Part shown: positions 21,427 to 54,607 of the stretch, in pieces
Layout: every line of letters begins with the position of its first letter
How positions within the stretch are numbered: the first letter of the stretch is position 1
Assembly: GCF_020622345.1 (NCBI RefSeq)
Contig: NZ_JACNMO010000030.1
Location: 1 to 63,878, forward strand
DNA from: Roseobacter weihaiensis
GTDB taxonomy: Bacteria; Pseudomonadota; Alphaproteobacteria; Rhodobacterales; Rhodobacteraceae
Direction: 5' to 3'
Length of the DNA stretch: 63,878 bases
Notes under the pieces: generated by a model
Told to the model about the DNA's origin: nothing
Seen by the model: only the letters and a program-made list of their open reading frames with translations
The model's database searches: none
Position numbers and translations under genes: made by a program

Positions 21427-23031
21427 TTACCCTTCCGGTATGAACCGCGGCAACGGTTCCTGCAAGGCATCCAGCATGGATTTCAGGCGCGCTTCAGCCT
21501 GCGCCTCCTCTTCGTCGGGGGCGATGATGGTGGTCAGCCGGACCAGGGCCCCATCGGTGCGGCCGGTGCGGATTCCATCCACCATGAGCCACCACTTCGC
21601 CTCGAAATCCCAGGCGATCTTGCGGCTTTTCTGCTGGAACCAGTAATAGACCATCATGCGGGCCTCACCCTTCTGGATGATCGCGCGGTTGATCTCGAAG
21701 GGTGTATCGGTTCCCATCGTCTGCGAGATATCGGTCCGTTCCAGCCAGGCGATCTCCCAGCCCGCACCCGGCAGACAGATCTCGGGGCTGTGCACGCCGC
21801 CCTGGCTCTGGTCGTCATACCAGGCCATGAAGAGACCCACCAGCGGCGTCCCCTCGGATACGGCAAAGTTCACCTGGTGATAGTCATCCGCGCCCAGAAC
21901 GTTTTCGATGCCGGGGCTGAGCTTGGTGGCGCGCCCGACCTGGGACCAGTCCTCCAGCTGGCGCGGGAAGAGCACAAAGCTGTCGCGTTCGATCTTGGTC
22001 ATGCCGCGCTCCGGCATGGCCTGCAGGGACAGGGCCGCGGCGATCATGAAGACACCCGAGAACACCAGCGCGCGCGAGGGTTGCACCAGCCGCAGCCGCA
22101 TGGCCTGCGTGCCCAGCCCGTCGGTTTCCAGATCCAGCGCCTCTGTCAGGGACATCTTTTCGCGCTGCAGTTTCAGCATGATCCAGGCCAGCAGGAACAG
22201 GATGAGAATACAGGAGATAAAGATCACCCAGCCTTCGAAGAAATGCGTAAAGCCGTCGAGCCATTCGACCCCGTAACGCTGGGCGATCACGCCTGCGACG
22301 GCAATCCGGACGGAGTTCATCAGCACGGTGATGGGCGCCGCCGAGATCAGCAGCACCGCCTTGTGCCACATCGGCCCTTTGTAGAGTACCGCAAAGATGT
22401 AGGAAAAGCTGAGGATCGGGAAGAGATAGCGCAGCCCCGAGCAGGCCTCGGCCACATGCAGTTTCAGCACGCCCAGATCGATGATGTTGCCATCCAGAAA
22501 GACCGGCACGCTCATCAGTTGCAGGAACCAGACGCCCAGCTCCGAGGAGATGAACTGCAGCCAGGCCGACATCTTGTAATAGAGCACGCCCGGCAGCGGC
22601 AGCATGTAGACAAGGTGCAACACAGGGGGCCAGAAATACTTGCCCGTGCGCCAGCCAAAGCTGATGAGCAGCAGCCCCCCGACCCAGAGGATCAGCGCAT
22701 AGGCCACGATATCGTCGATGTTGGACAGAATACCCAGGGTGCCCATGGTCATCGCCAGCAGGACAACAAACACACCGGGCAGGCGGTCGCTCACTGATCC
22801 GTGGTTTTCGGGAAACTCTTTGAGTTGACGCAGGAACAGCAGCGCCGACAGAACCGGGATCAGCGGCCCGTGGCTGTACTCGGGCAATTGCCAGGCCACC
22901 AGCAGCGCATTGAGGCCGTCGGAAAAGAAGATCAGCGCGCCAATAATGGCCGCAACAAGCCAGAACATGCCCCAGGACATGAAATTTTCGAGAAACCTGA
23001 CAGGTTTTAAAGTGTTGTTCAAAACCGACAT
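21427..23031 (-). CDS. Exosortase fused to EpsI domain (XrtD-like)
   Basis: 534 residues; ATG at 23031 preceded by AGGTGG. Residues about 20-285 form an eight-helix membrane exosortase. The presumed Cys-Arg-His triad is visible: C197 in EACSGL, R242 in NSVRI and H263 in DGFTHFFEGW. Residues about 335-534 form a periplasmic EpsI-like domain with HSPEICLPGAGWEI. This fusion fits the VPLPA-CTERM-type exosortase D known from Rhodobacterales, though the subtype is inference. Exosortases cleave and relocate PEP-CTERM-type proteins to the surface in step with polysaccharide. No protein in the window ends in a VPLPA/PEP-CTERM signal, so its substrates must be encoded elsewhere. Confidence 0.93.
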   Translation of the reverse strand: MSVLNNTLKPVRFLENFMSWGMFWLVAAIIGALIFFSDGLNALLVAWQLPEYSHGPLIPVLSALLFLRQLKEFPENHGSVSDRLPGVFVVLLAMTMGTLGILSNIDDIVAYALILWVGGLLLISFGWRTGKYFWPPVLHLVYMLPLPGVLYYKMSAWLQFISSELGVWFLQLMSVPVFLDGNIIDLGVLKLHVAEACSGLRYLFPILSFSYIFAVLYKGPMWHKAVLLISAAPITVLMNSVRIAVAGVIAQRYGVEWLDGFTHFFEGWVIFISCILILFLLAWIMLKLQREKMSLTEALDLETDGLGTQAMRLRLVQPSRALVFSGVFMIAAALSLQAMPERGMTKIERDSFVLFPRQLEDWSQVGRATKLSPGIENVLGADDYHQVNFAVSEGTPLVGLFMAWYDDQSQGGVHSPEICLPGAGWEIAWLERTDISQTMGTDTPFEINRAIIQKGEARMMVYYWFQQKSRKIAWDFEAKWWLMVDGIRTGRTDGALVRLTTIIAPDEEEAQAEARLKSMLDALQEPLPRFIPEG

Positions 23032-23232
23032 CAACTACCACCTAAACTAAAAATTTGATTCCAATTGCCGCGGAACATATCATTTCGCCCCGCCTGCTCA
23101 TAGCGGGTAACGGCGCGTTGGCGAAGATGTTATCACGAAAATGCGCCTTTTTTTGGTGTTTTCGGGCGCGGCGCTCCCCAAAACCCAGGACAGCTCTTCT
23201 GCCCGCCGGGTTCTGGCGGGGAGCAGGGTAAT

Positions 23233-25576: not shown

Positions 25577-26413
25577 TCAGTAATACCCTGCATCCGCGTC
25601 TGCAGGGTTGAGCAGGCGGCAGTTGTTCAGCACCACGCCCAGAACATTGGTCTGCTCGGCCACCTCGCGTTCGCAGATGTCGAGCTGGCTGATCTTGGTC
25701 TGCTCCGCGCGCGCGACAATCAGGGCACAATCCACATGCGACAGCATCGCGCGGGCGTCATCGGTCACCAGCATCGGCGGCAGATCGAACATCATGACAT
25801 CGGGCTCAAAGTCTTTCTGCAGCGTATCGATGGTCGTCGCGGTCTGTTGCGACATCAAAACCTGTATCGGGTCGCTGACCGGGCGCTCCGCCATGGAGAT
25901 TGCCACATTGGAACGCAGCCGCACCATCTGCTCTTGGGCCGACACCTCGCCCAGCAGAAGGTCCTTGATGTCATGCTGCGGTTTATGCCCCAGTATGTTC
26001 GCGATGCCCGGCCGGCGCAGATCAAGATCCAGCAGGATGGATTTGACCTCTCGCTGGCGCGAAAACCCAAAGGCCAGGTTACAGGCGGTCGTGCTTTTGC
26101 CACAGGCCTTGTCCGGCGAGGTGATCGCCATGCGTGACCAGCCGTTCTGTTGCATCAGCAAGAAGATCTTGGTGCGCAGCACGTCAAACGGGTTGGCTTC
26201 TGACTGCGCATTGAGCGTGATGACCCGGTTCGACAGCAGGGTCGCGGGATCCGGATCAAAAAGCGGCAGCCTGTTCCAGATCTCGGGCAGCGGCAGGCCC
26301 GGGTCGGCCTCCGCCACCTCGGCGCGCGGCACGGGCCCGGCGCGGTTTTTGCCAGAAGCGGTTTTGCCGCGCTCCTGTCGGGCCTTATTCAGGGCTTTTT
26401 GAAGTTTTTCCAT
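25577..26413 (-). CDS. Exopolysaccharide tyrosine autokinase (CpsD/EpsD type)
   Basis: 278 residues. The ATG at 26413 gives the family-like opening MEKLQKALNKARQERG. The ATPase core has the P-loop in SPDKACGKSTTACNLAF, Walker A' SILLDLDLRRPGI, and Walker B MMFDLPPMLVTDD. The C-terminus ends DADAGYY, a minimal tyrosine cluster for autophosphorylation. Proteins of this kind, with a separate Wzz partner, control chain length in PEP-CTERM/EpsH loci. The partner gene ends 45 bp upstream. Confidence 0.93.
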   Translation of the reverse strand: MEKLQKALNKARQERGKTASGKNRAGPVPRAEVAEADPGLPLPEIWNRLPLFDPDPATLLSNRVITLNAQSEANPFDVLRTKIFLLMQQNGWSRMAITSPDKACGKSTTACNLAFGFSRQREVKSILLDLDLRRPGIANILGHKPQHDIKDLLLGEVSAQEQMVRLRSNVAISMAERPVSDPIQVLMSQQTATTIDTLQKDFEPDVMMFDLPPMLVTDDARAMLSHVDCALIVARAEQTKISQLDICEREVAEQTNVLGVVLNNCRLLNPADADAGYY

Positions 26414-26458
26414 TGGGTCAGAGACTTCTTTCAACGAAACCGGAAGGGGAAGAATACA

Positions 26459-27985
26459 TCAGGTCAGACGCTCGAGGATTTTCTGAAAAAGCTCATCCAA
26501 CGGCATGTAGAAACGGTCGATCCCCCACATCATGCTGGGGACCGCCACGATGACGATCACCAGGACGGCAATCTGCATCGTGCGGCGACTGCGGCGGTCG
26601 CTGTCTGTTTCAAACCTCGGAATGGTGGCCAGCGGTGTGATCTCCAGCGCCTTGACGATATCGGTGGGGCGCCGGATGGCCTGGTTCAGAGCCTCGAGCA
26701 GGACAAAGAGCCCCACCGCCAGGGCGATGCCGGCTCCGATGCCCATGGTGGCGACTTTCGTGCGGTTCGGACCTGATGGAAATCTGGGGACCGAGGCGCT
26801 TTCCAGCACCGTGATCCGCTCTCCCTTGGCGGTCACCTCGATCCGCTCGCCCATACGGGCTTCCGCCACCCGCTGGATGGCAGAAGAATAGAGATTGCGG
26901 ATGTTTTCATGCTCGCGCTCCATTGCTTCAAGGGCGATGCGGTTGGCCGGCGTGCGGTCAATGCTCTCCTGCAGCCCTTCCAGTTCGGTGCTGGTATCTG
27001 CAATTTCCTGTTCCAGGGCCGCGATCTGGCTGTTGATCTCGGCCAGGCTGATGTCGAGCGCGGTCACCTCGGTGGGTGCACTGCCCTCTTCCGAAGGGGC
27101 CCCGGCGATCTGTTCGGTCAGGGCCGCAATCCTGTTGCGCAGCAGTTTGACGCGGGGGTTTTCTTCGGAATAGACCCCAAGGGCCACCCGCAGCTCGCCC
27201 TCAAGCGTGCGCAGCTGAACCTGTTCAGGGGTCTGCGGCATGTTGACCGGCGTGCCCAGCGATCCGTTCGAGGCCAGGAACCGCTCTATGTTGGCGCGCT
27301 GCGACAGGAAGGTTTCCAGATCCCGCTCCGCCCGGCTCAGCCGTTCTTGCAAAAGGCTCTGACGGCCCTGACGGTAGCTCAGGTTTTCAGGCAGGGCGTT
27401 GGCATTGGCATTCTTGAACGCAACGATCTTCTGGGCCTGGATATCGAGGTCTTCTGACAGTCTCTCAGCCTCTTCGCGAAAGAAATCCAGAGTTCCGCCG
27501 GCACGGCCTTCGCGAATCTGGGCATTCGTTGCCAGAACGATCGTGACATATTGATTGACCACGGCTGCGACCTGCTTGGGGTCTGTGCCGGTGAAGGAGA
27601 TCCGCATCACCGTGGCCCGGTTGCGTCCCGAGGTGTTGCGGACCCGCGTATTGCGGCGCATCTGCTCGACGATGGTATCGGGGTCCGCGCGCGGGCGGTC
27701 TCTGAAAATCCCGTTCTCACGCGCGACATTCAGCAGATTGGCACGTGTCAGCAGCCGCTGCTGGATCACATCCAGCTGCTCTGTCGGATCGATGTCAATC
27801 GTGGCCTGCACCAGCGCATCGGGAATCTGCGACCCTTCCACCAGCAAGGTCGCGGTTGTGGAATAGGTCGTGGGCAGGCGCAGGGACATGACCAGCCCGA
27901 TGCTGCTGGCCAGAATGAACAACGCCGCCATCGCCGGAAAACGGCGCGACAGGAGCTTGAGATAAAACCAGATATCCGTGGTCAT
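26459..27985 (-). CDS. Polysaccharide chain-length determinant (Wzz/GumC-like, EpsH-locus type)
   Basis: 508 residues. One membrane helix near residues 17-37, a long periplasmic region with coiled-coil at about 160-400 (EINSQIAALEQEIADTSTELE), and a membrane segment at about 425-445 are seen, plus a hydrophobic helix near the C-terminus (IAVLVIVIVAVPSMMWGI). The ATG overlaps the stop of the ATPase gene (ATGA), showing coupling. It should set polymer length together with the autokinase and link Wzy to the export channel. Confidence 0.94.
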   Translation of the reverse strand: MTTDIWFYLKLLSRRFPAMAALFILASSIGLVMSLRLPTTYSTTATLLVEGSQIPDALVQATIDIDPTEQLDVIQQRLLTRANLLNVARENGIFRDRPRADPDTIVEQMRRNTRVRNTSGRNRATVMRISFTGTDPKQVAAVVNQYVTIVLATNAQIREGRAGGTLDFFREEAERLSEDLDIQAQKIVAFKNANANALPENLSYRQGRQSLLQERLSRAERDLETFLSQRANIERFLASNGSLGTPVNMPQTPEQVQLRTLEGELRVALGVYSEENPRVKLLRNRIAALTEQIAGAPSEEGSAPTEVTALDISLAEINSQIAALEQEIADTSTELEGLQESIDRTPANRIALEAMEREHENIRNLYSSAIQRVAEARMGERIEVTAKGERITVLESASVPRFPSGPNRTKVATMGIGAGIALAVGLFVLLEALNQAIRRPTDIVKALEITPLATIPRFETDSDRRSRRTMQIAVLVIVIVAVPSMMWGIDRFYMPLDELFQKILERLT

Positions 27986-28869
27986 TCCGCAGCCTTACTC
28001 TGAGGGACGTTCAGCGGGTTTTGCAAAAGGAAAACATCCCGGGTCCGTGGTTTGATAAACAATCCGTCCGCCACAAGCTCCCGGATCAGGTCGATGCCGA
28101 CAACCTTCCGCGACCCGACAGCCGCATAGACCAGCGCCAGATCGCACAGCTTGTTGATGAGCCGGGGCACGCCGTTGGTTTCTTCGTAAATCCGCCTGAC
28201 GGCAAAGGCAGAGAATTCATCGCCCGTCCCGCCGACATGCAGCAGCCGGTGCTGGATATAGGCTTTGGTCGCCTTCATATCCAGCGCCTTGAGATGGTAG
28301 GTGGCCGTGACCCGCTGGGCAAACTGCACCAGCGAGGGGCTGGCAATGATGTCGCGCAGCTCTGGCTGACCCACCAGGATGAGCTGCAGAAGTTCATCCT
28401 TGTTGGAATTGATATTGGTGAACATGCGCAGCTCTTCGAGCGCCTCGACGCTGAGGTTCTGCGCCTCGTCGATGACCAGCACCACATGGCGGCCCTTTGC
28501 GTATTCGCCGATGACAAAGTCCTGAAACCGCTTGAACATGGTGATGTAGTCGTCTTCGTTCGCCGCCTCCACGCCCAGGGCGTAAAGCACCCAGCGCAAG
28601 AGATCCCCGCGCCCGCCCTGCGCGTTCGAGATCAGACCCACCGAGATATCCTCTTCCAGAGAGGCCAGAAGCTGCTGGATCAGGGTGGTCTTGCCCGCGC
28701 CGATCTCGCCGGTCACGACCGTCAGCGGAGACCGGGTGGCGATCCCGTATTCCAAGACCGAATAGGCCCGCTGATGGTTGCTGGACCAGAACAGAAAATC
28801 CGGATCCGGCAGCAGCGTAAACGGTCTTTCGGTAAATCCGAAAAAGGATGTATAAAGTTCAGCCGCCAT
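27982..28869 (-). CDS. ExeA-like AAA ATPase of exosortase/EPS locus
   Basis: 295 residues. Opening YTSFFGFTERPFTLLPDPDFLFWSSNH is the family hallmark. Walker A is VTGEIGAGKTTLIQQLL, and Walker B is VVLVIDEAQNLSVEALEELR with the sensor LQLILVGQPEL. These cytosolic 'secretion ATPases' accompany PEP-CTERM/EpsH exopolysaccharide clusters. It is the first gene of the minus-strand run (ATPase, chain-length, autokinase, epimerase, dehydrogenase, exosortase). Confidence 0.95.
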   Translation of the reverse strand: MAAELYTSFFGFTERPFTLLPDPDFLFWSSNHQRAYSVLEYGIATRSPLTVVTGEIGAGKTTLIQQLLASLEEDISVGLISNAQGGRGDLLRWVLYALGVEAANEDDYITMFKRFQDFVIGEYAKGRHVVLVIDEAQNLSVEALEELRMFTNINSNKDELLQLILVGQPELRDIIASPSLVQFAQRVTATYHLKALDMKATKAYIQHRLLHVGGTGDEFSAFAVRRIYEETNGVPRLINKLCDLALVYAAVGSRKVVGIDLIRELVADGLFIKPRTRDVFLLQNPLNVPQSKAAE

Positions 28870-29326: not shown

Positions 29327-29929
29327 ATGAAATATATTTTACTCGTTCTCTGGAGCCTTCTGCTCACCGCCACATCGGTTACGGCACAAAGCAATTACCG
29401 CATCAAGCCCGGTGACACGATCACTGTCGAAGTGCTTGAAGATGCCTCTCTCAACCGCTCCATCCTTGTTCTGCCAGACGGCTCGATCAGCTTTCCCTTT
29501 GCCGGCAGTGTCCCGGTCAGTGGCCGCACAGTGCCCGAGGTTCAGCAGGCGATCACCTCTGGCATTGCGGGCAATTTTGCCGCCGCCCCCACGGTTTTTG
29601 TCAGCGTCAGCGCCGTGCGCCCGGCTGCCCCGAGCAGCTCTTCGACAGCGAGCATTTCGGTCTATTTCGTGGGCGAGGTGAATGATCCGGGCCTGCGCCC
29701 GCTGACCCGCGGGACAACCTTTTTGCAGGCCGTCGCGCAAAGTGGCGGCTTTACGCGCTTTGCCGCGACCAAACGCGTGCAGCTCAGGCGTCTTGATCGC
29801 ACGACCGGCCAGCAGAGCATCTTTACAATGAATTTCAAGGCACTTGGGGACGGAGAGGCTTTGAGCAATGACATCACCCTGATGGAGGGCGATGTGATCC
29901 TTGTACCGGAACGCAGGCTCTTCGAATAA
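29327..29929 (+). CDS. Polysaccharide export outer-membrane protein (Wza-like, short EpsH-locus type)
   Basis: 200 residues; ATG with CTGAGG upstream. A signal peptide of about 20 residues ends at TSVTA; there is no lipobox cysteine. The poly_export domain follows (YRIKPGDTITVEVLEDASLNRSILVLPDGSISFPFAG), and then a SLBB-like domain (ISVYFVGEVNDPGLRPLTRGTTFLQAVAQSGGF). It lacks the extra SLBB copy and C-terminal helix of full Wza, as usual for the short PEP-CTERM-locus exporters. It should form the polysaccharide exit with the outer-membrane protein that follows 30 bp later. Confidence 0.94.
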   Translation: MKYILLVLWSLLLTATSVTAQSNYRIKPGDTITVEVLEDASLNRSILVLPDGSISFPFAGSVPVSGRTVPEVQQAITSGIAGNFAAAPTVFVSVSAVRPAAPSSSSTASISVYFVGEVNDPGLRPLTRGTTFLQAVAQSGGFTRFAATKRVQLRRLDRTTGQQSIFTMNFKALGDGEALSNDITLMEGDVILVPERRLFE

Positions 29930-32049: not shown

Positions 32050-32844
32050 ATGATTATTTTGACCGAGAAGAAATTCGCTTTCCTGCACATTCCCAAATGC
32101 GGCGGCAGCACGATCCAGAAATGGCTCCGGCAGCATCTGACCAGCGATGGCGCATTCTATGGCAAGATCGAGCATCCGCAGATCGGCACCGTCTACCGCG
32201 AACATCTGACGCTGCAACAGCTCGCCGCACATTATCCGGATGTGCTGGAAACCCTGCGGGCCAGTGACACCTTTGCGATCCTGCGCGATCCGCTCAAACG
32301 TTTTGTCTCTGCCTTGGGTCAGTATGTGAACGAAATGCACGGGGGCAATATCACCCTGATGTCCCCCGGTGACGTCAACACCCTGGCCGGCGATATTCTG
32401 GACCAGCTTGAAACTCTCGACGGGGCATTCCGCTTTGAGTTGACGCATTTCATCCCGCAGGCCGATTTCATCGAACTGGAGGGCGTGCGCGTGGCCCGCG
32501 AGCTGCGCCCGCTGCAGCAGATGGAGGCGACCTTTGCCGAGCTGTCCACCCGGCTTGATATTCCGCCGCCCCAGGTGGTCCGGCAGAACGTGCGCAAGGA
32601 GTTTCGCGTCAAGGCGCTGGCGCCAATCTTGCGCAGGCTGGATCAGCTGGCCCGCCGGGTGCTGCCGCGCAAACTGGCGACCCGGCTGAACGCGCTGGCC
32701 AGCGGGGTTTTTCAGAGGCCGAAATCGGCCCAGTCCGCGCCCCTGCTGGACGCAGAAACCGCGCGCCGCATCCGGGCGTTTTACCGCCGGGATTTCGAGC
32801 TCTTGCAAGAGATATCAGAGACTGAAAAGGCCAAATTGGCCTGA
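32050..32844 (+). CDS. Sulfotransferase family 2-like protein
   Basis: 264 residues. The 5'-phosphosulfate loop is seen near the N-terminus as FLHIPKCGGSTIQKWL, and the 3'-phosphate motif as FAILRDPLKRFVSALGQYV. The rest is helical, with a basic C-terminal half. It should transfer sulfate from PAPS, made by the synthase at 5023, to a sugar hydroxyl. It is the first of three sulfotransferases of different subfamilies on the plasmid. Convergent with the small membrane protein gene. Confidence 0.9.
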   Translation: MIILTEKKFAFLHIPKCGGSTIQKWLRQHLTSDGAFYGKIEHPQIGTVYREHLTLQQLAAHYPDVLETLRASDTFAILRDPLKRFVSALGQYVNEMHGGNITLMSPGDVNTLAGDILDQLETLDGAFRFELTHFIPQADFIELEGVRVARELRPLQQMEATFAELSTRLDIPPPQVVRQNVRKEFRVKALAPILRRLDQLARRVLPRKLATRLNALASGVFQRPKSAQSAPLLDAETARRIRAFYRRDFELLQEISETEKAKLA

Positions 32845-32857
32845 TGATGGCTGGGCT

Positions 32858-33199: not shown

Positions 33200-33210
33200 C
33201 GGCCCCCTCC

Positions 33211-36200
33211 TCAGGATGTTGTGACGGAGATTTTCACGGTCTCAAAGCGCCCGCGCCCATCGGTGATGAAGACGAACATGGTGTCCGGGATGTCCGGGGG
33301 GCTGACGTAATCGCGGTCAGGGGTGTAGGTGACCGTGCCGTCACCATTGTTCTTGAGCTCGCCATAGTCCGGTTTGATCCTGTCCTCAAAGAGCGACAGC
33401 GTGGTCCCGGCCTCGCCACTGGCTCCTGCCAGCACATCGAGGGTGACCGGCGTATTGCGGTCCGTCGTTGCGGTGAGATCAGCCCGTGCGGGGCCCGTGG
33501 CCGACAGGGTGAAGGCCCCGTTGGAACTGCCGAAGGTGCTGGCCGCGCGCACCGTGCCCGTGCAGCGCACCGCAACCGTATGAAGCGCAGGCCGCCCCGT
33601 CACCCGATCCGAGATATAGAGCGGAAAGACCGCGATATCGTCGCCCTGATAGGTCCAGTACCCCACACGGGCAATCTGCTCTTGCAGCAGCTTGCCTGTC
33701 AGCTTGGCATCCTGCTCGTCGACTTCGGTTCTAACGCCCTCGATGGTCTTGATGTTGTGATCTGACTTGCCATACCAAAGGCCCGATGTGTCATAGCTGA
33801 CGGGAATAGGAGCCGTGCCCAGGCTGTCGGTGACCGTAAAGACAGAATTGGTGTAATCGTAGCTTTTTTCGACATCCAGATTCTGCGTGCCCCCCGTCCA
33901 GTCGTAGGCAATGAACGGGCCTGAGAGGGTCGGCTCCACCTCTGCCGGGACGGAGGACAGAAACAGGGTGCGGTCCTGCGCGGTGACGGTGGTCAGAGCA
34001 TCCCGCTCGGCCTGCGCCTCGGTGTATTCATAATCGACTGTGTTGTTGACCAGCGTCGGCGCGATGATGGCAAAAAGCGGGTCATCGGGCAGATTGAAAT
34101 CCTTCGTCCAGGCAAAGTTCGAAACCCCCCAGAGGTCAAAAGCCACGTCAAAGCCTTCCACGTGGTTGCGCACGTTGGAAATCTGGATGGCGGCCAGACG
34201 GAACCCTGTTTTCGTCTTGCCCCCGATGGTCCGGCCCGTGGCATAGAACCGGTTATCAAGGAAATTGTAGCGCGCCACATACTCAAGATGCGTGCCGATC
34301 CCGACCGCCCAGAACTTGTTGTTCTTGACGTTGATGGCCAGGGCATGGTCCTGCTTTGCCCCCGACTTGGTGACGGCAAAACCGTATCCCTGGACGCCCG
34401 CGCATTCATTGCCCGCAAAGTGACGGATCGGCACATCCTCCGCATTCAGGTACCCATTCTGCCAGTCCAGATAGGACAGCGACCCGATATCAAGATGCGC
34501 GCGCGGGACTTTCAGTTTCTTGGAGAGCTGATACGCCGGGTTGTCTGCGCGGTTGGCCCGGTGAAAGAACACATAGGCGGACGGCACGGACATGACCATG
34601 TTGTTGTTGACCCGCATGGCGCGGCCCCGGAAAAACATGCCCATACCGGTAAAGGCGAAATCCCCGTATCGGGCCGAGGCGCCTTCGTCATTCTTGGGGT
34701 TTCCGGCGCTCACGCGGTTGCCGGCAAACCCGGGGCGCGTGCCCAGCATCAGGTTGCCGACCCATGCGCCCAGCTCATCCGCGGTCTCAGAGACCATGCC
34801 CGCGCCCACGAACCGGTAGCCGACATTGTCAAAGAAGTCTGCCTCGCAGCCGTGGTGAACATAGGCCCAGGCCGGCGCGTTCTCCACATAGCAGGCCTGG
34901 ATGACGGGCTTTTGCGCGCCGCGACCAAAGCCTGCAAAATGCACATGCAGAGGATAGCGCGACTGCAAATTCGACCGTGCCGTGAGCGGGCTGTAGCGGA
35001 TCACGTCCTGGTTGACCGACCTGACAGCCCCTGCGCCATCGACATTTATGGTCGGCAGGCCATCGGGGTTGGCGGCGGGACGCTCCACGGCGGTGACGGT
35101 ATCGCCGCTGCGGGTGACCGTATACCCCAGCCCTTCCAGCGTGGCCTGCAAGCTCGCGTCGATGCTCTGACCGACATATTGCTCTTCGTCTGAATCGTAA
35201 GGGTAGCTGGCAAAGCGGCCGTCCCGGATGATGCCCGAATAGATCGATTTATCCGTGCGGCCCATATCCAGACAGGCAACCCCCCAGAGGTCGACCCGGG
35301 TTGTCATATGCATCGCCATGGAGTGACCGCGGCGCCAGGGCTTGTCCTCGTTGGGGGCCTCGGAGCGCCAGATCACATTGCGCTTTTTGTTGAGCACCGC
35401 AGGCTGCAGCTCCGTCACCCCGGTTATCCCTGCGTTCTGGTGGTCGTGGTCGTGAACCAGCGGCGCATTCGCGGCCCAGCCGACGGTCGCCCCGTTTATC
35501 GATGTGATGACACGCTCTTCGTTTTCCTCGCCAGTGATGATCCCGTTGGATTCCCGAAAGAACGTGCCGCCAATGACGATGGTGTCTCCGACGGCCCAGC
35601 CCGTGGGGGCTTCGGCCAGTGTCAGGGAGGTGTCACCCGTCATGGGCGCGCTTGCCGGGGCGGTGCGCAGCCAGGGGGTGACGTCCTGCGCCCAGACGCT
35701 GACCCGGCCATGCCACAACAGACCGCGCGACAGCAGCATCGGGTCATGCGTCAGGCTGAGATCCGACGGGGCGTCTGCGCTGTCGGGATAGTGCCGGTCG
35801 GAAAAGGTCAGCACATGCCTGAACTGGTCCGGCAGCCGGGCCGCCGGGGTGCCGACGCGCAGTTCACCCGACTGGGTGACCACCACCGTCTCCACCAGCA
35901 TCTCGGTGTCCTGCAGGATCGAGACATTCAGCAACCCGTCCAGCCGCACCCGGTCAAGGCGCGGCGCGCTGGCCACGTCATAGGTGACGGTGCGCCCGAA
36001 AGGCACAAGCACCACGGCGCCGGCACCGGGTACGGTGCCCGTGTCCCATGTCGCCGCCGAAGACCACGCCCCATCCCGGATGGCGATATGCGTGGCCGCC
36101 GCATGCGGCACAAGCGCCAGCACTGCATTGTCCATCGTGTTGTGCGACGGATCGCCATGCGCATGATAAATCCGCACGGCGGGCGTCTCTGCGGTGCCTT

Positions 36201-36444
36201 GCATGCCTGTCACAAGGCAGGAGACCTGCGCGCCCATCGGCATCATCGGGGCTGAAAAAGTGGCCCCCGTCGCGCCGGAGACACTGGCGCCATTCACGCG
36301 CCATTGATAGCTCGACAGGCCCGTCATGCTGCCTGCCGCGATGCTCAGGGGCACACCGGCCCGTTGGGTGCCCACAATACGGGGCAATGCGGTGATGGCC
36401 GCTTGCGGCGTGGAGAAACTGTTTGTCGTGACCAGGGTGACCAT
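33211..36444 (-). CDS. G8-domain / parallel beta-helix protein
   Basis: 1,077 residues. No signal peptide is seen. Residues about 20-95 look Ig-like (SSYQWRVNGASVSGATGATF), the G8 domain spans about 118-225 (THIAIRDGAWSSAATW ... ELRVGT), a long beta-helix-like region follows to about 850, and the C-terminus has a cadherin-like repeat (NNGDGTVTYTPDRDYVSPPD). It is clearly homologous to the G8 protein at the junction: GMVSETADELGAW against GFVSETGNEIGAW, and LDMGRTDKS against HELGRTDKS. G8 proteins in animals (CEMIP) bind or degrade hyaluronan; for bacteria glycan binding is inference. It starts 4 bp after the Ig-like gene, in one operon. Confidence 0.92.
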   Translation of the reverse strand: MVTLVTTNSFSTPQAAITALPRIVGTQRAGVPLSIAAGSMTGLSSYQWRVNGASVSGATGATFSAPMMPMGAQVSCLVTGMQGTAETPAVRIYHAHGDPSHNTMDNAVLALVPHAAATHIAIRDGAWSSAATWDTGTVPGAGAVVLVPFGRTVTYDVASAPRLDRVRLDGLLNVSILQDTEMLVETVVVTQSGELRVGTPAARLPDQFRHVLTFSDRHYPDSADAPSDLSLTHDPMLLSRGLLWHGRVSVWAQDVTPWLRTAPASAPMTGDTSLTLAEAPTGWAVGDTIVIGGTFFRESNGIITGEENEERVITSINGATVGWAANAPLVHDHDHQNAGITGVTELQPAVLNKKRNVIWRSEAPNEDKPWRRGHSMAMHMTTRVDLWGVACLDMGRTDKSIYSGIIRDGRFASYPYDSDEEQYVGQSIDASLQATLEGLGYTVTRSGDTVTAVERPAANPDGLPTINVDGAGAVRSVNQDVIRYSPLTARSNLQSRYPLHVHFAGFGRGAQKPVIQACYVENAPAWAYVHHGCEADFFDNVGYRFVGAGMVSETADELGAWVGNLMLGTRPGFAGNRVSAGNPKNDEGASARYGDFAFTGMGMFFRGRAMRVNNNMVMSVPSAYVFFHRANRADNPAYQLSKKLKVPRAHLDIGSLSYLDWQNGYLNAEDVPIRHFAGNECAGVQGYGFAVTKSGAKQDHALAINVKNNKFWAVGIGTHLEYVARYNFLDNRFYATGRTIGGKTKTGFRLAAIQISNVRNHVEGFDVAFDLWGVSNFAWTKDFNLPDDPLFAIIAPTLVNNTVDYEYTEAQAERDALTTVTAQDRTLFLSSVPAEVEPTLSGPFIAYDWTGGTQNLDVEKSYDYTNSVFTVTDSLGTAPIPVSYDTSGLWYGKSDHNIKTIEGVRTEVDEQDAKLTGKLLQEQIARVGYWTYQGDDIAVFPLYISDRVTGRPALHTVAVRCTGTVRAASTFGSSNGAFTLSATGPARADLTATTDRNTPVTLDVLAGASGEAGTTLSLFEDRIKPDYGELKNNGDGTVTYTPDRDYVSPPDIPDTMFVFITDGRGRFETVKISVTTS

Positions 36445-36448
36445 GTGA

Positions 36449-38563
36449 TTAATCCGCCGTAATTGCTATGCCGAGCAGCGATGAGGCACCGCCTGAGCCA
36501 GCCTGAAATGAAAAGGTAAGAGGAGAGCTGTCGTCTGTCCGCAAAAGGCCAGCCACCGCCATCTTGCGGTTATCGGGCTGCGGGGGGACATCGAGGTAGA
36601 TTTCGCTGAGATCCGTCCATGTGACGATGCCATCGTCGATGTAAGACGTGGGCCCGACCGAAAAGGCGATGACATAGTTGGCTTGCCCTGCGGGGGTCAC
36701 CGCCAGCGTGATGGGGTCGGTGCCGCTACTGCGGTAGGCATGGGCCACCGCGGCCCCGGTCCCGATTGTGCCGTCCTTGACGCCGTAGACCATCAGCAAG
36801 TGGTCACGCACGACAGCCGCAAGTGTCACCACCACGGTGGCAGCCCCGCTGCCATCGTCCGTCATGACATATTTGAACGCCGTGGTGAGCGACGCTCCCG
36901 CAGCGCCCTGATCGACAGAGAGCTTTGTCGCGGCGTCGCCATCAACCGTAAGGGCCGTCCCGTAAGCCCGCGTGCCAAGCATGAACAACAGCTCGTCACC
37001 AGCGGCATAGCCCGACAGATCGACGGTATAGGTGACGGTATCCGTGGTGCTTCTGGACCCCTGGATCGTGCCGATCCGGTCCACGGTGAAGGCCGAGGTA
37101 TCGAGATCCACATCCGTCACAAAGGCCGCGTTATCCCAAAGATCGCCTTCGTCATCCTCGACGGTGGCATAGAAATCGAAGGTGCCGCTGGGGTTGCCCC
37201 CCAGATTCACATTGATGACGCCTGCCGCCGAAACCGTGTAGCTGCCCGCAAAGACCGCCGGGGCCGCGTCTGCATCGTGGCCTGCTTTGATCTGTGGCGC
37301 CGAAGGGGCGACCGCCCCGGCAGGAATACCAACAATATAGACACTGTAAGGCGTCGGTTGATCTTCTGTCATGCTGATCGACACCGGCAGGTTGGTGCCG
37401 GAAAGCGCCCCGATTGTCAGCGTGTTGATGCGCGGCGACACGCGGGCTGCGACCGCATTCAGGCCCACCGTGATTTCATCGGACAGGATATCCGCCTGCC
37501 CCGCACTTGAGGCCCGGAACCGCGCCGTAATGATGCCCGCCGTCTCGCCCGAGGTGTCCCAGGACAGCCCCGACAACGCGTCCGACTTATCCACGCCATC
37601 GAGCCGGAAGTCTTCGACCGTGATCGTGGCCGCCGGGCTGGCGGCCCCCTCGATCAGCGTGAGCGTATCGCCCACCGTATAGCCGGGCGCCCCGAAGGAC
37701 GGCTGCACATCGAATTTCAGCAGATCAATCGCCGGGACACTGGTCGCATAGGTGTTCACCCCTGCGTCGACCTCCACATGGAGCGTGCCTGCGCTGAAAG
37801 CCTGCGGGTTTTGGGCGGTGCCGTATTGCGCCCCACCGGGCGTGCTGCCCCATCTGAAGCTGTCGATCTCGCGCCCGTTGGAGAGCTGCGCGCTGATACC
37901 GGGATAGGTGTCGACGTCCGCAGCCCCCTCCGTCAGGTTGGTGATGCTCACAACCGTCTGGTCGATCTGCAGCGTCGTGGTGCCAGAGACCGCGCCGCCG
38001 CTATTGGTCGCCGTGATGATCAGGACCGTGCCGGATTGTACGTCGATGAGATCCGTGTTGACCTCGATAAACCCGTCAGGCCGGATCGTGAGATTCTCCG
38101 CACCCGAGACGGACCAGGCTATATTAGAGCCTGAAAAGGCGGCTTGCGCGTCTTCATAGACCTGCGGGCCAAGACCTTGCTGGTAGCTGATGGGCGACAG
38201 CGGGCCGGTAAAGACCGGCGCGCGAGATGCCACGATGCGGGGCTGCACCCCAAAGGTCCGACGACCGCCTGCGCTGTCGGTCACGGTGATGGCAAAACTG
38301 ATCCGGTCGCCTTCTGCAAGCGGTGTGCTGTCATCAGGAACGTCACCTGTATAGTCGACCCTGACCGTGGCAATCGTGGCCTCCGGCGCGCCTGCGATGT
38401 AATTCGAGGCGCGGGTAAAGAGGGTCCAGTTGGGGGTTTGCGCAAGCGTCTGCCCGACCTCAAGCGGCGCGGACGCTGGCGTCACAAGCGCCCCGATGGG
38501 TTGGGGGCCCTGCAACGTGACCACATTCGAGGCAAATGCGATACTGGCGCCGACGCCGATCAT
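36449..38563 (-). CDS. Multi-Ig-like-domain structural protein
   Basis: 704 residues. The ATG overlaps the stop of the 87-residue gene upstream (ATGA). The N-terminus is hydrophobic but not a clear signal peptide (MIGVGASIAFASNVVTL). The body is built of repeating 80-100-residue beta domains with Ig/cadherin-like patterns (AGDRISFAITVTDSAGG, IDVQSGTVLIITATNSGGAV, TYTVDLSGYAAGDELLFML), and the last about 180 residues resemble a separate beta domain (AVVRDHLLMVYGVKDGTIGTG). No enzyme motifs were found. As the middle gene of the spike-like trio it could be a fibre; that is inference. Confidence 0.85.
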   Translation of the reverse strand: MIGVGASIAFASNVVTLQGPQPIGALVTPASAPLEVGQTLAQTPNWTLFTRASNYIAGAPEATIATVRVDYTGDVPDDSTPLAEGDRISFAITVTDSAGGRRTFGVQPRIVASRAPVFTGPLSPISYQQGLGPQVYEDAQAAFSGSNIAWSVSGAENLTIRPDGFIEVNTDLIDVQSGTVLIITATNSGGAVSGTTTLQIDQTVVSITNLTEGAADVDTYPGISAQLSNGREIDSFRWGSTPGGAQYGTAQNPQAFSAGTLHVEVDAGVNTYATSVPAIDLLKFDVQPSFGAPGYTVGDTLTLIEGAASPAATITVEDFRLDGVDKSDALSGLSWDTSGETAGIITARFRASSAGQADILSDEITVGLNAVAARVSPRINTLTIGALSGTNLPVSISMTEDQPTPYSVYIVGIPAGAVAPSAPQIKAGHDADAAPAVFAGSYTVSAAGVINVNLGGNPSGTFDFYATVEDDEGDLWDNAAFVTDVDLDTSAFTVDRIGTIQGSRSTTDTVTYTVDLSGYAAGDELLFMLGTRAYGTALTVDGDAATKLSVDQGAAGASLTTAFKYVMTDDGSGAATVVVTLAAVVRDHLLMVYGVKDGTIGTGAAVAHAYRSSGTDPITLAVTPAGQANYVIAFSVGPTSYIDDGIVTWTDLSEIYLDVPPQPDNRKMAVAGLLRTDDSSPLTFSFQAGSGGASSLLGIAITAD

Positions 38564-38826
38564 CAGGACAGCCCGACGATGCCGGTGGCTGTCGTGCCGG
38601 TGGACCAGACACGCGTGGCCCGGAGCGGGAAAGGGATCCCCGCGGCAATGGTGATCGCACCGGTCTGCCCATCGAGTGTCGTGACAAACACGGTTCCGGT
38701 CGTGGCCACATTGAGGGCGCGCGTCACAGTCTGCAGATCGGCGCTGTCAGAGGGGGTGATTTCTTCAAGCTCGGTCAAAGGACCGGTGGAACCTGTTTGA
38801 GAACCATTGAATTTATTCTTGGGCAT
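38563..38826 (-). CDS. Small protein resembling gene-transfer-agent head-spike base (Rcc01079-like)
   Basis: 87 residues; ATG preceded by AAGGA at 8 bases. The pattern EITPSDSADLQTVTRALNV, then TTLDGQTGAITIAAGIPFPLRATRVWSTGTTATGIVGL, recalls the short proteins of alphaproteobacterial phages and of the Rhodobacter capsulatus gene-transfer agent whose product forms the capsid spike base. I rely on memory of the motif, so family membership needs a search. It is translationally coupled to the 704-residue Ig-like gene and, through it, the G8 gene. No other phage genes are present. Confidence 0.75.
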   Translation of the reverse strand: MPKNKFNGSQTGSTGPLTELEEITPSDSADLQTVTRALNVATTGTVFVTTLDGQTGAITIAAGIPFPLRATRVWSTGTTATGIVGLS

Positions 38827-39191: not shown

Positions 39192-40664
39192 ATGGCTGTT
39201 GCGTATTTTGCTCTGTTTAGCTGGCCTGTTGTGGCCTTTCTGGCCTTCCGGCGCTTTGAGGTGCCGCTGGCGATCCTGGTGACGCTGATCTTTGGGTACC
39301 TGTTTTTGCCCACGCAGATCTCGGTCAACCTGCCGGTGCTGCCGACGCTGGATAAAAACACCATCCCCGCCTTTGCCGTGCTGGCGCTGGTTTTGCTGGT
39401 GTTCAAAAAATCCCTGTCGGCCCCGGGGACGACCACCTTCATACCGCGCTCCGCGCTGGCGCGGCTCTGTCTGGTCACCTTCGTATTCGGCGCGTTTTTT
39501 ACCGCCGCCACGAATGATGATCCGTTGCAATACGGCCCCATACGCCTTCCAGCCCTGCGCACTTATGACGCTTTTTCCATCATCCTTGCGTTTTTCTCGA
39601 CCCTTGTGCCCTTCTTTCTGGCGCATAAATTTCTGGCCCATCCCGAAAAGCAGCGGCTTTTTCTGAAGATCTTTGTGCTGGCGGCCCTCATCTACACGCT
39701 GCCCGCCCTTTACGAGGTGCGCATGTCGCCGCAGCTCAACCGCATGGTCTACGGATTTTTCCCGCACAACTTTCTGCAACACATGCGCGGCAACGGGTTC
39801 CGCCCGGTTGTGTTTCTCGAACACGGGCTGGTACTGGCCATCTTCATGACCATGGCCCTGGTGGCTGCGATCGGGCTGACCCGGCTTGAACCCCCCGCAC
39901 GGAAAACCCGGCTGGTCCTCGCCGCGATCTGGCTGTTCTTTACGCTGGTGCTGTGCAAATCGCTCGGGGCGCTGGCGATTGCGCTGGCCCTGATTCCCAT
40001 GGCCTTGCTGCTGACCGTGCGGCTGCAGCTGATGATGGCGGTCGGGCTTTTCATCATCTTCCTCAGCTATCCGGTGCTGCGCACTGCGGGCTATGTCCCG
40101 GTTGACCGCATCAACGCCTATGCCGAAAGCGTCGATCCGATGCGCGCCGCCTCGCTGCGCGTGCGGCTCGAGAACGAGGACGATTTCCTTGCCAAGGTGG
40201 CAGAGCGTCCGGTCTTTGGCTGGGGCGGGTATGGCCGCTCGCGGGTGTTTGCCGAAAACGGCACGGATACGAGCATCGCGGATGGCGCCTGGGTCATGAC
40301 GCTTGGCGTTGGCGGCTGGGTGCGCTATCTGGCCCAATTCGGGCTTTACTGCCTGCCCGCCTTCTATCTTTTCTGGTTTCGACGACATCTCAATCTGACA
40401 CTGGAGACATCGATCCTCACCCTGATGCTGGCGGCCAATATCCTCGATCTGATCCCCAATGCCAGCCAGACCCCCCTGACCTGGATGCTGGCGGGATGCT
40501 TGTGGGGGCGGCTGTCCCTGGGCCGGGTCAGCCACGGTCTCGAAGAGGAAAAGGCCGCCGCTCCAAAGCGCGGGGTGCAATATGCCCGCCCCCATCCCAA
40601 ACGCCCGCCAAGAGGGGTGACGCTGAGGGCGCGGCGGCTTGTTCCCACGGAACACAAAGGGTAA
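39192..40664 (+). CDS. O-antigen polymerase/ligase-like membrane protein (Wzy-like) 1
   Basis: 490 residues, about 10-12 membrane helices. A central periplasmic loop includes NGFRPVVFLEHG and FLAKVAERPVFGWGGYGRS, a pattern shared with O-antigen ligase/Wzy proteins. It would join repeat units at the periplasmic face. A distant paralogue with the same GFRP.(V/G)LFEHG-like motif and a similar opening (RLETRLAILI vs RFEVPLAILV) is encoded at 49464. The start has GGAATGATCAATG upstream. It heads a + operon with glycosyltransferase, sulfotransferase and glycosyltransferase genes. Confidence 0.88.
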   Translation: MAVAYFALFSWPVVAFLAFRRFEVPLAILVTLIFGYLFLPTQISVNLPVLPTLDKNTIPAFAVLALVLLVFKKSLSAPGTTTFIPRSALARLCLVTFVFGAFFTAATNDDPLQYGPIRLPALRTYDAFSIILAFFSTLVPFFLAHKFLAHPEKQRLFLKIFVLAALIYTLPALYEVRMSPQLNRMVYGFFPHNFLQHMRGNGFRPVVFLEHGLVLAIFMTMALVAAIGLTRLEPPARKTRLVLAAIWLFFTLVLCKSLGALAIALALIPMALLLTVRLQLMMAVGLFIIFLSYPVLRTAGYVPVDRINAYAESVDPMRAASLRVRLENEDDFLAKVAERPVFGWGGYGRSRVFAENGTDTSIADGAWVMTLGVGGWVRYLAQFGLYCLPAFYLFWFRRHLNLTLETSILTLMLAANILDLIPNASQTPLTWMLAGCLWGRLSLGRVSHGLEEEKAAAPKRGVQYARPHPKRPPRGVTLRARRLVPTEHKG

Positions 40665-40675
40665 GTGCCGCTCTC

Positions 40676-49463: not shown

Positions 49464-50813
49464 ATGGTTGATATCACCACATCCTACATCGCGTTTCTTG
49501 CCCTCTCTGCCGTGCTGTTCTGGCGCCTGGAGACGCGTTTGGCCATCCTGATTGTCTTTTTCGGGGGCTGGCTGGTGCTGCCGGTCGGGCCCTATCCGCC
49601 CCTGCAGCCCTCGGACGGGTTTGCCTGGTGGATCACCGGGCTGGCGCTGCCCGGTGACATGCTGCTGTCCAAGGCCTGGGGGGTGCCGGCGGTCGCGCTG
49701 GCGGGGGCTATGCTGGCGGACCGGCGGGCGGTCGGACGGTTTCGACCCTGCAGGTGGGATCTGCCGGTGCTGCTTTGGTGCCTGTGGCCGCTGGGGCTGG
49801 CGCTGAGCGGCACGGCGCTGCGCCCAGAGGCCCCGCTTGCCGCAGCCTATCTGACGGGCTGCTGGGGGCTGCCCTGGCTTTTGGGGCGGATCTGGTTTTC
49901 GGACACCGCAGGGCGCGTGGCCTTGCTGAAAGGCTGTGCCGGGGCCGGGGCGGCCTGCCTGCCCTTTGCCCTGCTCGAAGGGACCGGCACATTGCGGTTT
50001 TACGAGGTGCTCTACACCCCCCACCCCTTTCGCGACGATGGCTGGGCCCGCTATGTGGGGTTTCGGCCCGTTGGTCTTTTTGAGCACGGCAATCAATACG
50101 GCATCTGGGTGGCGCTCTCGGCGCTGGCCGCTTTGTGGGGTGCGGTGACATACCGGCAGACCGGGAGCGGCAGGCGCTGGCTTTTCCTCGCCCTGCTGAC
50201 CCTTGCGATCGCCTGTGCGGCCCAATCGATCGGGGCGCTTTTGTCGCTGATCGCGGGGGGGGCCATTCTGGCGGGCTGGGGGCGACGGCTTACCGGGCTG
50301 CTGCTGATGGCCGGGTTCGGCGCGCTGGGGCTTCTGGCCGCCCTGCATCTGAGCGGCGTGGTGCCGCTGGAATATATCGCCCGGCAAACAGCCATCGGGC
50401 AAACCCTCCTTGAGGGCTTCCGCACGGTGGGGCGCGGCTCTTTTCTATGGCGGATCTCGGCGGATCTCAAATCGCTGGAGATCGCGCAGGAGGTCTTTCT
50501 CCAGGGCACCGGCCTCTGGGATTGGTGGCGGCCCTCCGACAGCCGGCCCTGGGGGCTTTGGCTGCTCCTGATCGGACAGTTCGGGCTGATCGGGTTTCTG
50601 CTCTGCTATGGCACGTTGCTGGCCCTGGCCGGACGCGGGCTCTACCACCTGCGCCGCATGCCTGCCTGGGTGGGGTCTTCTGCCGCGCTGCCGCTGGCGC
50701 TGATCGTGATTTTTGCCCTGTTAGACTCTTTTCTGAACGCGTTTTTCTACTTCCCGGCCCTGCTGGCCGCAGGTGCCATCGCCGCGGACAGGGCGCACCC
50801 TCAGACCCTCTAG
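49464..50813 (+). CDS. O-antigen polymerase/ligase-like membrane protein (Wzy-like) 2
   Basis: 449 residues, about 10-12 membrane helices. The periplasmic region has GFRPVGLFEHGNQYGIW, resembling GNGFRPVVFLEHG of the protein at 39192, and VFLQGTGLWDWWRPSD. The two are distant paralogues, so one could polymerise and the other ligate, or each could serve its own repeat unit. Its stop shares a CTAG with the convergent repA stop. Confidence 0.86.
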   Translation: MVDITTSYIAFLALSAVLFWRLETRLAILIVFFGGWLVLPVGPYPPLQPSDGFAWWITGLALPGDMLLSKAWGVPAVALAGAMLADRRAVGRFRPCRWDLPVLLWCLWPLGLALSGTALRPEAPLAAAYLTGCWGLPWLLGRIWFSDTAGRVALLKGCAGAGAACLPFALLEGTGTLRFYEVLYTPHPFRDDGWARYVGFRPVGLFEHGNQYGIWVALSALAALWGAVTYRQTGSGRRWLFLALLTLAIACAAQSIGALLSLIAGGAILAGWGRRLTGLLLMAGFGALGLLAALHLSGVVPLEYIARQTAIGQTLLEGFRTVGRGSFLWRISADLKSLEIAQEVFLQGTGLWDWWRPSDSRPWGLWLLLIGQFGLIGFLLCYGTLLALAGRGLYHLRRMPAWVGSSAALPLALIVIFALLDSFLNAFFYFPALLAAGAIAADRAHPQTL

Positions 50814-51805
50814 ACCTGCTGCTTGCGCACCCAGCCCAGAAAGGCCTTGTCCGGCGCGCTGAGCCGCGTCCGGCCGGATTGGGCCCACCAGGCGCGCCAC
50901 TGTGCCTCCAGCGCATAGACATCCGCCTGCGGGGCCAGCGCGCGCGCCGCCTCGATGGCCGCGGCCGAGATCTGCGGCCCCTGCCCCGGCGCCTCGATCA
51001 GACGGCGCGGCGAGATGCGGATGATATCGCCCGGCTCTTCGGTCAGGTCATAATCGGGCAGGCTGTCGGCCTTGATGATCTCGCGGATCATCGCCCGGAA
51101 CACCCGCCGCGGCGAATTGGAGCCGGATTTCTTGCACAATGTCTCGACGGACACACGCCAGGTCGGCTGGCGGCCACAGTGTTTGCGCGCCAATTCGTAA
51201 AGCCGCCGCTCCAGCGGTTTGCGCAGGGAAAAATAGGCGCGGTTCAGCGTCAGCACCGATTTCGACAGCACCGCCTGATAGAGCCACTCCGACAGGGTCA
51301 CCGAAACGCTGACCATCCGGCCCGCGCGGGTCTTGCGCACGATCTCCCAGGCTTCGATCAGGCCAAAGCCGGAGGTGACCTCGCGCTCGCCGGTGGTGAT
51401 ATTGGTGGTGATCCGGGTGCCGGCCAGCCGCTCAAAAGCATCGCGCAGGCGGCGGTAGCTGTCGCCGGAGGTCTCGCGCCGGGTCGCCAGCAGCAGGTCA
51501 TGAGCGGTCAGCGTCAGGGTGCGCGACACCGGCCGACCGGCATTCAGTCCCGCCATCAGCTGCGAAATGCAAAAGATCAGGATATCCGCATCAAAGATCG
51601 TGGCCCGACCCTTGACCGATGGGGTGATGGTGATGTCGGTGTCGTTGTGACTGTAGTTCAGAATACGCCGGTCCGGCCGGGTGGAGAGCGAAAACACCGG
51701 ATGCTCCATGCTGGCCAGATCATGTTTGGGCACAGCGCCGAGAAAATCGCAGACAAAAAAATCCTGCGGCCCCGCGCCCGCCTGTGCCACCTGTCTGGCG
51801 TCCAT
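50810..51805 (-). CDS. repA: Plasmid replication initiator, RepA (RPA family)
   Basis: 331 residues of the replication initiator protein A family. Recognisable blocks are DFFVCDFLGAVPKHDLASMEHPVFSL at the N-terminus, ILNYSHNDTDITITPS, GRATIFDADILIFCISQL, and the winged-helix stretch SDSYRRLRDAFERL/SGDSYRRL with TLSEWLYQAVLSKSVLTLNRAYFSLRKPLERRLYELARKH. It binds the origin and starts replication. It is read away from the adjoining 432-bp origin region and from parA-parB. RepA replicons with parAB are characteristic of roseobacters; the subgroup (RepA-I expected for a biofilm plasmid) was not tested. Confidence 0.96.
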   Translation of the reverse strand: MDARQVAQAGAGPQDFFVCDFLGAVPKHDLASMEHPVFSLSTRPDRRILNYSHNDTDITITPSVKGRATIFDADILIFCISQLMAGLNAGRPVSRTLTLTAHDLLLATRRETSGDSYRRLRDAFERLAGTRITTNITTGEREVTSGFGLIEAWEIVRKTRAGRMVSVSVTLSEWLYQAVLSKSVLTLNRAYFSLRKPLERRLYELARKHCGRQPTWRVSVETLCKKSGSNSPRRVFRAMIREIIKADSLPDYDLTEEPGDIIRISPRRLIEAPGQGPQISAAAIEAARALAPQADVYALEAQWRAWWAQSGRTRLSAPDKAFLGWVRKQQV

Positions 51806-53647: not shown

Positions 53648-54607
53648 ATGGCAAAACGCAAACGACTGACCTCTGCGGCGCTGACCGGCATGGCCCCCGT
53701 GACCCCCAAGACCGCCACGCCGCGCCGCGCACCCATTGCCCACGTGGCCGGAGACGCTGCTGCCACGGCCGCCCTGCAGGATCTGGCGGGTGAAATGCAG
53801 ACCGCGCGGGCGACAGGGCGGCTTGTGCAGGCCCTGCCCCTGCAGGCAATCGCCGCAGACCACCTGATCCGCGACCGTCTTGTGCAGGACGACGCGGAAA
53901 TGGCCGCGCTCAAGGCCTCGCTCGTGGCGCGGGGCCAGCAGACCCCGGTGGAGGTCGTCGAACTGGGTGACGAGACATATGGGCTGATCTCGGGTCATCG
54001 GCGGCTGAGTGCGCTGCAGGGGCTCTTTGAGGAAACCGGCGAGGCGCGCTTTGCGCAGGTGCTGGCACTCATCAAACCGCTGGAGGGAGCTGCCGCCAGC
54101 TATACCGCCATGGTCGAGGAAAACGAGATACGCGCCAATCTGTCGTTCTATGAACGGGCCCGGCTGGCGGCTGAGGCGGCCCGGATCGGCGTCTACCCGA
54201 CCCCGGCCCGGGCCGTGGCCGCACTTTTTGCCAATGCGCCTGCCGCCAAACGCTCGAAGATCGCAAGCTTCTTGCGGGTGCATGCGGATCTGGGCCCCGC
54301 GCTGGCGTTCCCCGCGGCCATTCCAGAAAAGCTGGGGCTGGCGCTCTCCAAGGCGCTGCAGGCGGATGCGGGGTTTGCCCCGCGCCTGAAGGCGGCCTTG
54401 CGCCGCGCGCCTGACCGGGATGCCGAGCAGGAGCGGATGATCCTGGAGCGCAGCCTCAAAAGCAGCGCGCCCAAGGGGCCCACGGAGGTGCGGCAGCTGC
54501 GCGCTGATCTCGCGCTGCATGTGGGGCGGGGCCAGGTCACGGTCAAAGGGGCAGGGGTCACGCCAGAGCTCATTGCGCAGCTTGAGCAGTGGCTGGCGCG
54601 GCGCTGA
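53648..54607 (+). CDS. parB: Plasmid partition DNA-binding protein ParB
   Basis: 319 residues, 27 bp after parA. The N-terminal nuclease-like domain (IRDRLVQDDAEMAALKASLVARGQQTPVEVVEL) has the GHRRLSALQGL signature, followed by the ENEIRANLSFYERARLAAEAARIG segment and a KRSKIASFLRV helix-turn-helix-like region. It binds parS; two palindromic candidates sit just downstream of the gene. Confidence 0.95.
   Translation: MAKRKRLTSAALTGMAPVTPKTATPRRAPIAHVAGDAAATAALQDLAGEMQTARATGRLVQALPLQAIAADHLIRDRLVQDDAEMAALKASLVARGQQTPVEVVELGDETYGLISGHRRLSALQGLFEETGEARFAQVLALIKPLEGAAASYTAMVEENEIRANLSFYERARLAAEAARIGVYPTPARAVAALFANAPAAKRSKIASFLRVHADLGPALAFPAAIPEKLGLALSKALQADAGFAPRLKAALRRAPDRDAEQERMILERSLKSSAPKGPTEVRQLRADLALHVGRGQVTVKGAGVTPELIAQLEQWLARR

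Follow-up and report, generated by a model that had tools for sequence, protein, structure and literature searches.

A candidate gene transfer agent head-spike operon within an exopolysaccharide cluster on a circular plasmid of Roseobacter weihaiensis

Gene transfer agents (GTAs) are commonly portrayed as elements of the chromosome that have been domesticated. The closest described counterpart of the locus reported here is the GhsA/GhsB (Rcc01079/Rcc01080) head spike of the Rhodobacter capsulatus GTA (RcGTA), with which it shares the base family, a short base gene followed by a fibre gene, an alternating-hydrophobic fibre anchor, a position away from the GTA core cluster and polysaccharide genes as neighbours (PMC7296036 and PMC10218006, as far as their accessible text describes RcGTA). 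The accessible parts of further accounts describe spike genes that adjoin capsule genes, with co-regulation and binding (PMC10218006), receptor-binding proteins encoded at loci away from the core (PMC13420450) and putative CtrA half-sites at the spike promoter (PMC9638019). Here we consider a stretch of 63,878 bases from Roseobacter weihaiensis (the window, a whole contig, NZ_JACNMO010000030.1) and a trio of minus-strand genes within it, encoding proteins of 87, 704 and 1,077 residues. Our preferred reading, to which we assign a probability of roughly 60%, is that this trio is the head-spike operon of a GTA encoded on another contig, with a plasmid-borne key (the spike) linked to its lock (exopolysaccharide, EPS, synthesis).

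The 87-residue protein (38563..38826, minus strand) matches the NF048002 profile, 'spike base protein, RCAP_Rcc01079 family', with 99.2 bits (cut-off 28) over residues 4-86 of 87. It further matches phrog_12296 with 75 bits and resembles the RcGTA spike base in PDB 6tb9 with an E-value of 1e-10. Because of these scores the match, full length and above the curated cut-off, is far beyond chance, and by sequence the protein is a spike base of the Rcc01079/GhsA family. A likeness to GTA and phage spike-base proteins had been noted in the preliminary description of this DNA, and the profile search bears it out. In an alignment, bases fall into two sequence classes, '...TGTTATGIVGL' (that of the window) and 'NPFxNR...GTTATGIHA', and fibre N-termini often differ between the classes.

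A check of the open reading frames (ORFs) reproduced the coordinates, lengths and spacing first given for the trio: the stop/start overlap between the base gene and the 704-residue gene (36449..38563, minus strand) amounts to 1 nucleotide, and a 4-bp gap separates the latter from the 1,077-residue gene. The 704-residue protein begins M-I-G-V-G-A-S-I-A-F, with hydrophobic residues alternating as in the RcGTA fibre, the third being Ala. Its anchor motif score is 8 of 9, a value attained by 24 of 2384 control ORFs. It combines the position directly after the base with the five-hydrophobic alternating N-terminal anchor expected of a GhsB-type fibre. Over all loci, scores of at least 7 were found for 34/91 spike-adjacent picks versus 140/2384 controls, a contrast inflated because a pick on the spike side could come from any of several ORFs and frames, whereas a control offered just the starts of a single ORF; the score of the 704-residue ORF itself is unaffected. 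No Pfam domain in this protein scored above cut-off. Its predicted model is all-beta with modest confidence (predicted local distance difference test, pLDDT, 64; predicted template modelling score 0.36; first 30 residues below pLDDT 50), and a Foldseek search returned immunoglobulin (Ig)-type matches. The model, too weak for domain claims past Ig-like beta structure, is consistent with the Ig-type protein first proposed. From gene order, anchor and model, the protein looks like the fibre of the 87-residue base: a putative head fibre in the GhsB position, with a star-type N-terminal anchor followed by Ig-like beta domains. Four relatives were detected (scored among the 7,996 candidates sharing most words), and none was found in viral contigs.

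The third gene (33211..36444, minus strand) encodes a G8/CEMIP-type beta-helix protein with a phage-tail-type Ig domain (residues ~16-89), a beta-helix (~122-832) and a cadherin/Big_9 domain (~986-1075). Pfam scores are 37.4 bits for G8 (cut-off 22.9) and 34.1 bits for Big_9 (cut-off 23.6), and the G8 domain together with the CEMIP beta-helix places the protein in the CEMIP/TMEM2 G8 class. Identity to TMEM2/CEMIP is 16%, and the 1,077-residue protein differs from those proteins in its flanking phage-tail-type and cadherin-like Ig domains. Polar residues are conserved, and a polysaccharide-degrading activity is putative only. A second G8/CEMIP-type protein of 1,059 residues spans the contig ends (61186-63878 joined to 1-614, minus strand). 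It has a signal- or membrane-like N-terminus as judged by eye and a long GDHGDG-type repeat (an 18-bp DNA repeat), and shares 35% and 28% identity with sections of the 1,077-residue protein. These are the only two G8 matches of the genome, both on this replicon.

A GTA elsewhere in the genome, presumed in the preliminary description, was located. Contig C24 (391 kb), probably chromosomal as judged from its size, encodes, in this order, terminase, portal, major head, major tail, tail assembly, minor tail and GTA_TIM baseplate proteins, which identifies a GTA core cluster from the part of the g1-g15 gene set that was checked. In the same genome (99.99% complete, 91 contigs), the plasmid-borne 87-residue protein is the single spike base match. 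It had been suggested that the trio could re-target chromosomal GTA or phage-like particles as an accessory spike kit; we reject this, as no second spike base was found in the genome. There is therefore no known resident spike to override, and it is more likely that the plasmid carries the GTA's own head spike. Contig C14 (G000:C14, L115) holds a different, prophage-like set with its own portal, in which one protein has matches to major head as well as head-protease families and another, of the GTA_TIM baseplate type, shares 38% identity with its GTA counterpart.

That the window is a plasmid had been a supposition. The terminal 127 bases are identical at both ends, a perfect overlap that closes the contig into a circle of 63,751 bp. 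Support also comes from a RepA replication initiator (50810..51805, minus strand; 70% identity to the annotated replication initiator protein A of Thioclava plasmid CP155826), a ParA partition ATPase (52238..53620, plus strand; Pfam AAA_31) and, adjoining it, a ParB-like partition protein (53648..54607, plus strand; Pfam ParB_N E 0.00087, under the Pfam cut-off). The designation as an EPS plasmid likewise holds, given its exosortase, export and CpsD/ExeA-like genes. By Pfam these comprise an EpsH/Xrt-type exosortase (21427..23034, minus strand), an EPS core of CpsD-like ATPase, Wzz-like chain-length protein and ExeA-like AAA ATPase (25577..28869, minus strand) and a Poly_export/SLBB polysaccharide export protein (29327..29929, plus strand). 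The Wzz-like protein has no Pfam match and is named from its position beside CpsD and ExeA, the ExeA-Wzz-CpsD order being that of annotated plasmids. A sulfotransferase (Sulfotransfer_2; 32050..32844, plus strand) adjoins the trio on one side. Divergent from the spike operon on the other lies an O-antigen ligase/Wzy-like polymerase gene (39192..40664, plus strand; Pfam Wzy_C 24.7 bits, under the cut-off of 31.7). Much of the remaining plasmid is also devoted to EPS synthesis, with glycosyltransferases, ManC, sulfotransferases and ATP sulfurylase/APS kinase. The latter is a fused protein (4978-6735) which, together with a plasmid-encoded protein that has a sulfotransferase domain, suggests a sulfated polysaccharide. 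A megablast search of window positions 20000-44000 matched 44 of 72,556 plasmid records, none over more than 80% of the query; the ten matches listed each cover 5-6% of it and correspond to a single EPS gene.

The circular RepA plasmid carries the operon within its exosortase-type EPS cluster, so that key and presumed lock would be inherited and lost together. In the proposed mechanism, the 87-residue base would form pentamers on the capsid vertices, and the star-type N-terminal peptide would dock the 704-residue fibre, whose Ig-like domains would be displayed to bind sugars. The 1,077-residue protein, expressed along with them, may be an accessory that binds or processes carbohydrate. Base, fibre and EPS genes would diversify while staying linked. 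Incorporation of these proteins into GTA particles, EPS binding and the role of the G8 protein are thus proposals, and binding of the spike to the plasmid's own polysaccharide is plausible from the linkage and by analogy to R. capsulatus.

Within the genus Roseobacter, a spike base was found in 17/19 genomes and a GTA_TIM match in all 19, only partial in G207 and G210. A RepA at least 72% identical to that of the window is present in 14/19 genomes, and in 12 of these 14 the RepA contig (41-105 kb) also bears a base, one copy (G203) being interrupted. This base is the only one found in nine genomes; G200 and G201 have theirs on a contig of chromosome size. Under random length-weighted placement, 12/14 has p about 1e-18, with shared ancestry ignored; the plasmid sizes of G200 and G201 are approximate, which leaves the maximum fraction used unaffected. 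Bases on the other RepA contigs, for which circularity is established in a minority at most, are 33-57% identical to the window base (the interrupted one 23%), and the next-gene proteins differ widely. Hence, one replicon lineage, as defined by RepA, carries different keys.

The wider survey covered 199 family genomes, each from a different genus. A spike base was detected in 68, exactly one match being listed in 61 of them, and GTA_TIM occurred in 66/68 genomes with a spike versus 105/131 without (p 5e-4). The spike matches gave 76 rows, of which 74 loci were fetched, two fragments of G091:C15 being dropped. Using 37 EPS markers drawn from the window and annotated spike plasmids, at least one marker ORF was found within ~10 kb of the base in 51/74 spike loci, in 58/80 named genome-contig loci (the best 80 of 143, some overlapping the family set) and in 17/17 opened plasmids. 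Since the markers came from them, neither the RefSeq plasmids nor the window, which is L113 among the 74, give independent evidence here. Marker ORFs were present in 1/24 hand-picked regions and 0/22 GTA-type regions, the coordinates and contigs of the 'random' controls having been chosen by hand and the GTA-type set including the prophage-like C14 region. At least two markers per 20 kb separate the 74 spike loci from the hand-picked regions with p about 4e-7; some loci end at contig ends, counts are scaled to 20 kb and the shared ancestry of species is ignored.

A search of 72,556 plasmid records gave 30 with a base; 17 of these 30 were opened, picked by rank and variety. By annotation 16 of the 17 contain EPS genes, while Thioclava GXIMD4215 p3 has mainly pyrroloquinoline quinone and sugar-transport genes with YjbF/YjbH. 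Rep or partition markers lie inside the fetched stretch in 8/17. Relatives of the 1,077-residue protein occur on 7 plasmid records, none among the 30 with a spike base, which shows that spike loci do not generally include the G8 gene; of the other spike loci searched, one, L218, has a G8 relative, encoded close to the base on the opposite strand.

The gene next to the base was identified in 127 cases (96 listed), and 74 of the proteins were scanned for domains. Seven contain a carbohydrate-esterase domain (SASA), four a Laminin_G-type lectin fold and several match phage tail or virion families; at least two are unlike fibres, with histone-deacetylase and glycosyltransferase matches. At L043, L054, L084, L009 and others, the base adjoins a Wzz/CpsD/sugar-transferase core, with no recognisable fibre gene downstream. 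Among locus pairs with similar bases (0.60-0.95 relative score), 90/495 share detectable fibre similarity, and these have a mean of 2.2 neighbouring genes in common versus 0.43 for other pairs. The co-variation of fibre and EPS context is suggestive, though confounded by physical linkage, which alone could explain it, and partly duplicated loci are included. CtrA half-sites lie upstream of the base in 31/74 loci versus 64/397 control upstream regions (p 2e-6), and sites with at most one mismatch in 16/74 versus 34/397 (p 0.002).

Several observations weigh against the head-spike reading. No clear family-wide enrichment is seen for exact full CtrA sites (3/74 versus 3/397, p 0.05), and no CtrA half-site was found upstream of the window base, unlike RcGTA. 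A spike base is undetected in 105/171 GTA_TIM genomes; as 105/131 spike-less genomes have GTA_TIM, many GTAs manage without a detectable base. EPS markers are absent from 23/74 spike loci, and at several loci the base is unaccompanied by a recognisable fibre. In one Roseobacter genome the RepA-contig base is interrupted (G203:C2:45199-45452, two partial matches) and an intact base lies on a chromosome-sized contig. The 1,077-residue protein has no fibre anchor and no evident means of attachment, and TMEM2, the closest solved relative of the G8 fold, had no detectable hyaluronidase activity (PMC10206443); the enzyme activity of TMEM2 is disputed. Furthermore, the base family occurs in 34 of 50,697 phage records and in at least 291 viral stretches, of which 80 were kept, so family membership alone is no proof of GTA use.

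The last point raises an explanation we consider unlikely, namely that the spike is phage-derived and serves a phage or the C14 prophage-like element. The base is common in temperate phages, C14 has a GTA_TIM-type baseplate with its own portal and major head protein, and two spike loci of the genus without EPS markers (L365 and L369) have 3 and 2 phage-like ORFs. However, the window locus has none, and at least three such ORFs occur in only 2/74 family spike loci versus 14/22 GTA-type loci. Spike loci are EPS-linked, and spike presence tracks GTA_TIM, though this family is also found in prophages such as C14. As first reported, capsid, portal and tail families are absent from the window, here from the 48 of its ORFs searched with Pfam, and no ORF of at least 100 residues in positions 28700-48699 resembles ORFs of two or more of the 80 spike-bearing viral contigs. 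A prophage remnant was rejected, there being no phage-like ORFs near the trio.

Just as improbable is an EPS-associated fibre, secreted or on the cell surface, that has nothing to do with particles, the base fold having been co-opted; a surface fibre of its own had been offered as an option at the outset and has gained no positive support. The EPS context would suit it, as would the second, signal-like G8 protein and those bases lacking a recognisable fibre, such as on a Palleronia plasmid where a VPLPA-CTERM protein follows. Set against this, no obvious signal peptide was seen in the trio proteins (by eye only), the capsid-binding family and fibre anchor are kept and several of the proteins encoded next to a base have phage tail and virion family matches. 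Least probable is that EPS clusters are mere hotspots gathering surface-recognition genes, this fibre and this EPS not being matched as key and lock: linkage alone could yield the fibre/EPS co-variation, and base and RepA are both common in the genus, but R. capsulatus provides a precedent of adjacency, co-regulation and binding (PMC10218006, accessible text), and the linkage recurs with different EPS and replicon types.

If the head-spike reading holds, one plasmid, carrying apparently the only GTA spike set of its host, may decide which cells share genes. With receptor-binding part and receptor biosynthesis on one dispensable plasmid, carriage would set GTA compatibility, a linked recognition system in abundant marine bacteria. 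We tentatively extend this to a broader possibility, less probable than the reading itself: RepA EPS plasmids of Rhodobacterales might be portable, mating-type-like GTA-exchange cassettes, comprising a GTA head spike and the polysaccharide bound by it, whose gain, loss or divergence resets who exchanges chromosomal DNA, with the G8 protein as a spike-linked carbohydrate-active module suited to its own EPS. The long-standing question of which cells trade DNA through GTAs, and of why the receptor-binding loci are dispersed, would thereby become directly testable.

In comparison to the RcGTA spikes, the window trio is located on a circular RepA plasmid, its fibre has 704 rather than 325 residues, a third gene encodes a G8/beta-helix protein and the adjoining cluster is of the exosortase type rather than the rcc01081-01086 capsule cluster. 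TspA, a detachable RcGTA tailspike degrading biofilm according to the accessible text of PMC13420450, is likewise a GTA-associated polysaccharide-acting protein, the role proposed here for the 1,077-residue protein, but differs in being baseplate-associated. The Roseobacter plasmids pRLO149_63 (taken as G203:C2) and pTB2 (presumed G200:C3), which carry cell-envelope biosynthesis genes (PMC3141670, accessible text), have a RepA 79% identical to that of the window. In contrast to the window plasmid, the base is interrupted on the former and none was found on the latter, and in both genomes a chromosome-sized contig carries a base. Among the papers listed by searches of the open-access literature, most subscription papers lying outside it, no title or abstract opening pointed to plasmid-borne GTA spikes. 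An adjacency of lock and key that had been established for a single species appears to be common across the family and, in the genus, to be found mostly on RepA contigs. Spike-capsule adjacency is already known from Rhodobacter capsulatus, while its breadth, the plasmid location and the G8 protein seem to be new.

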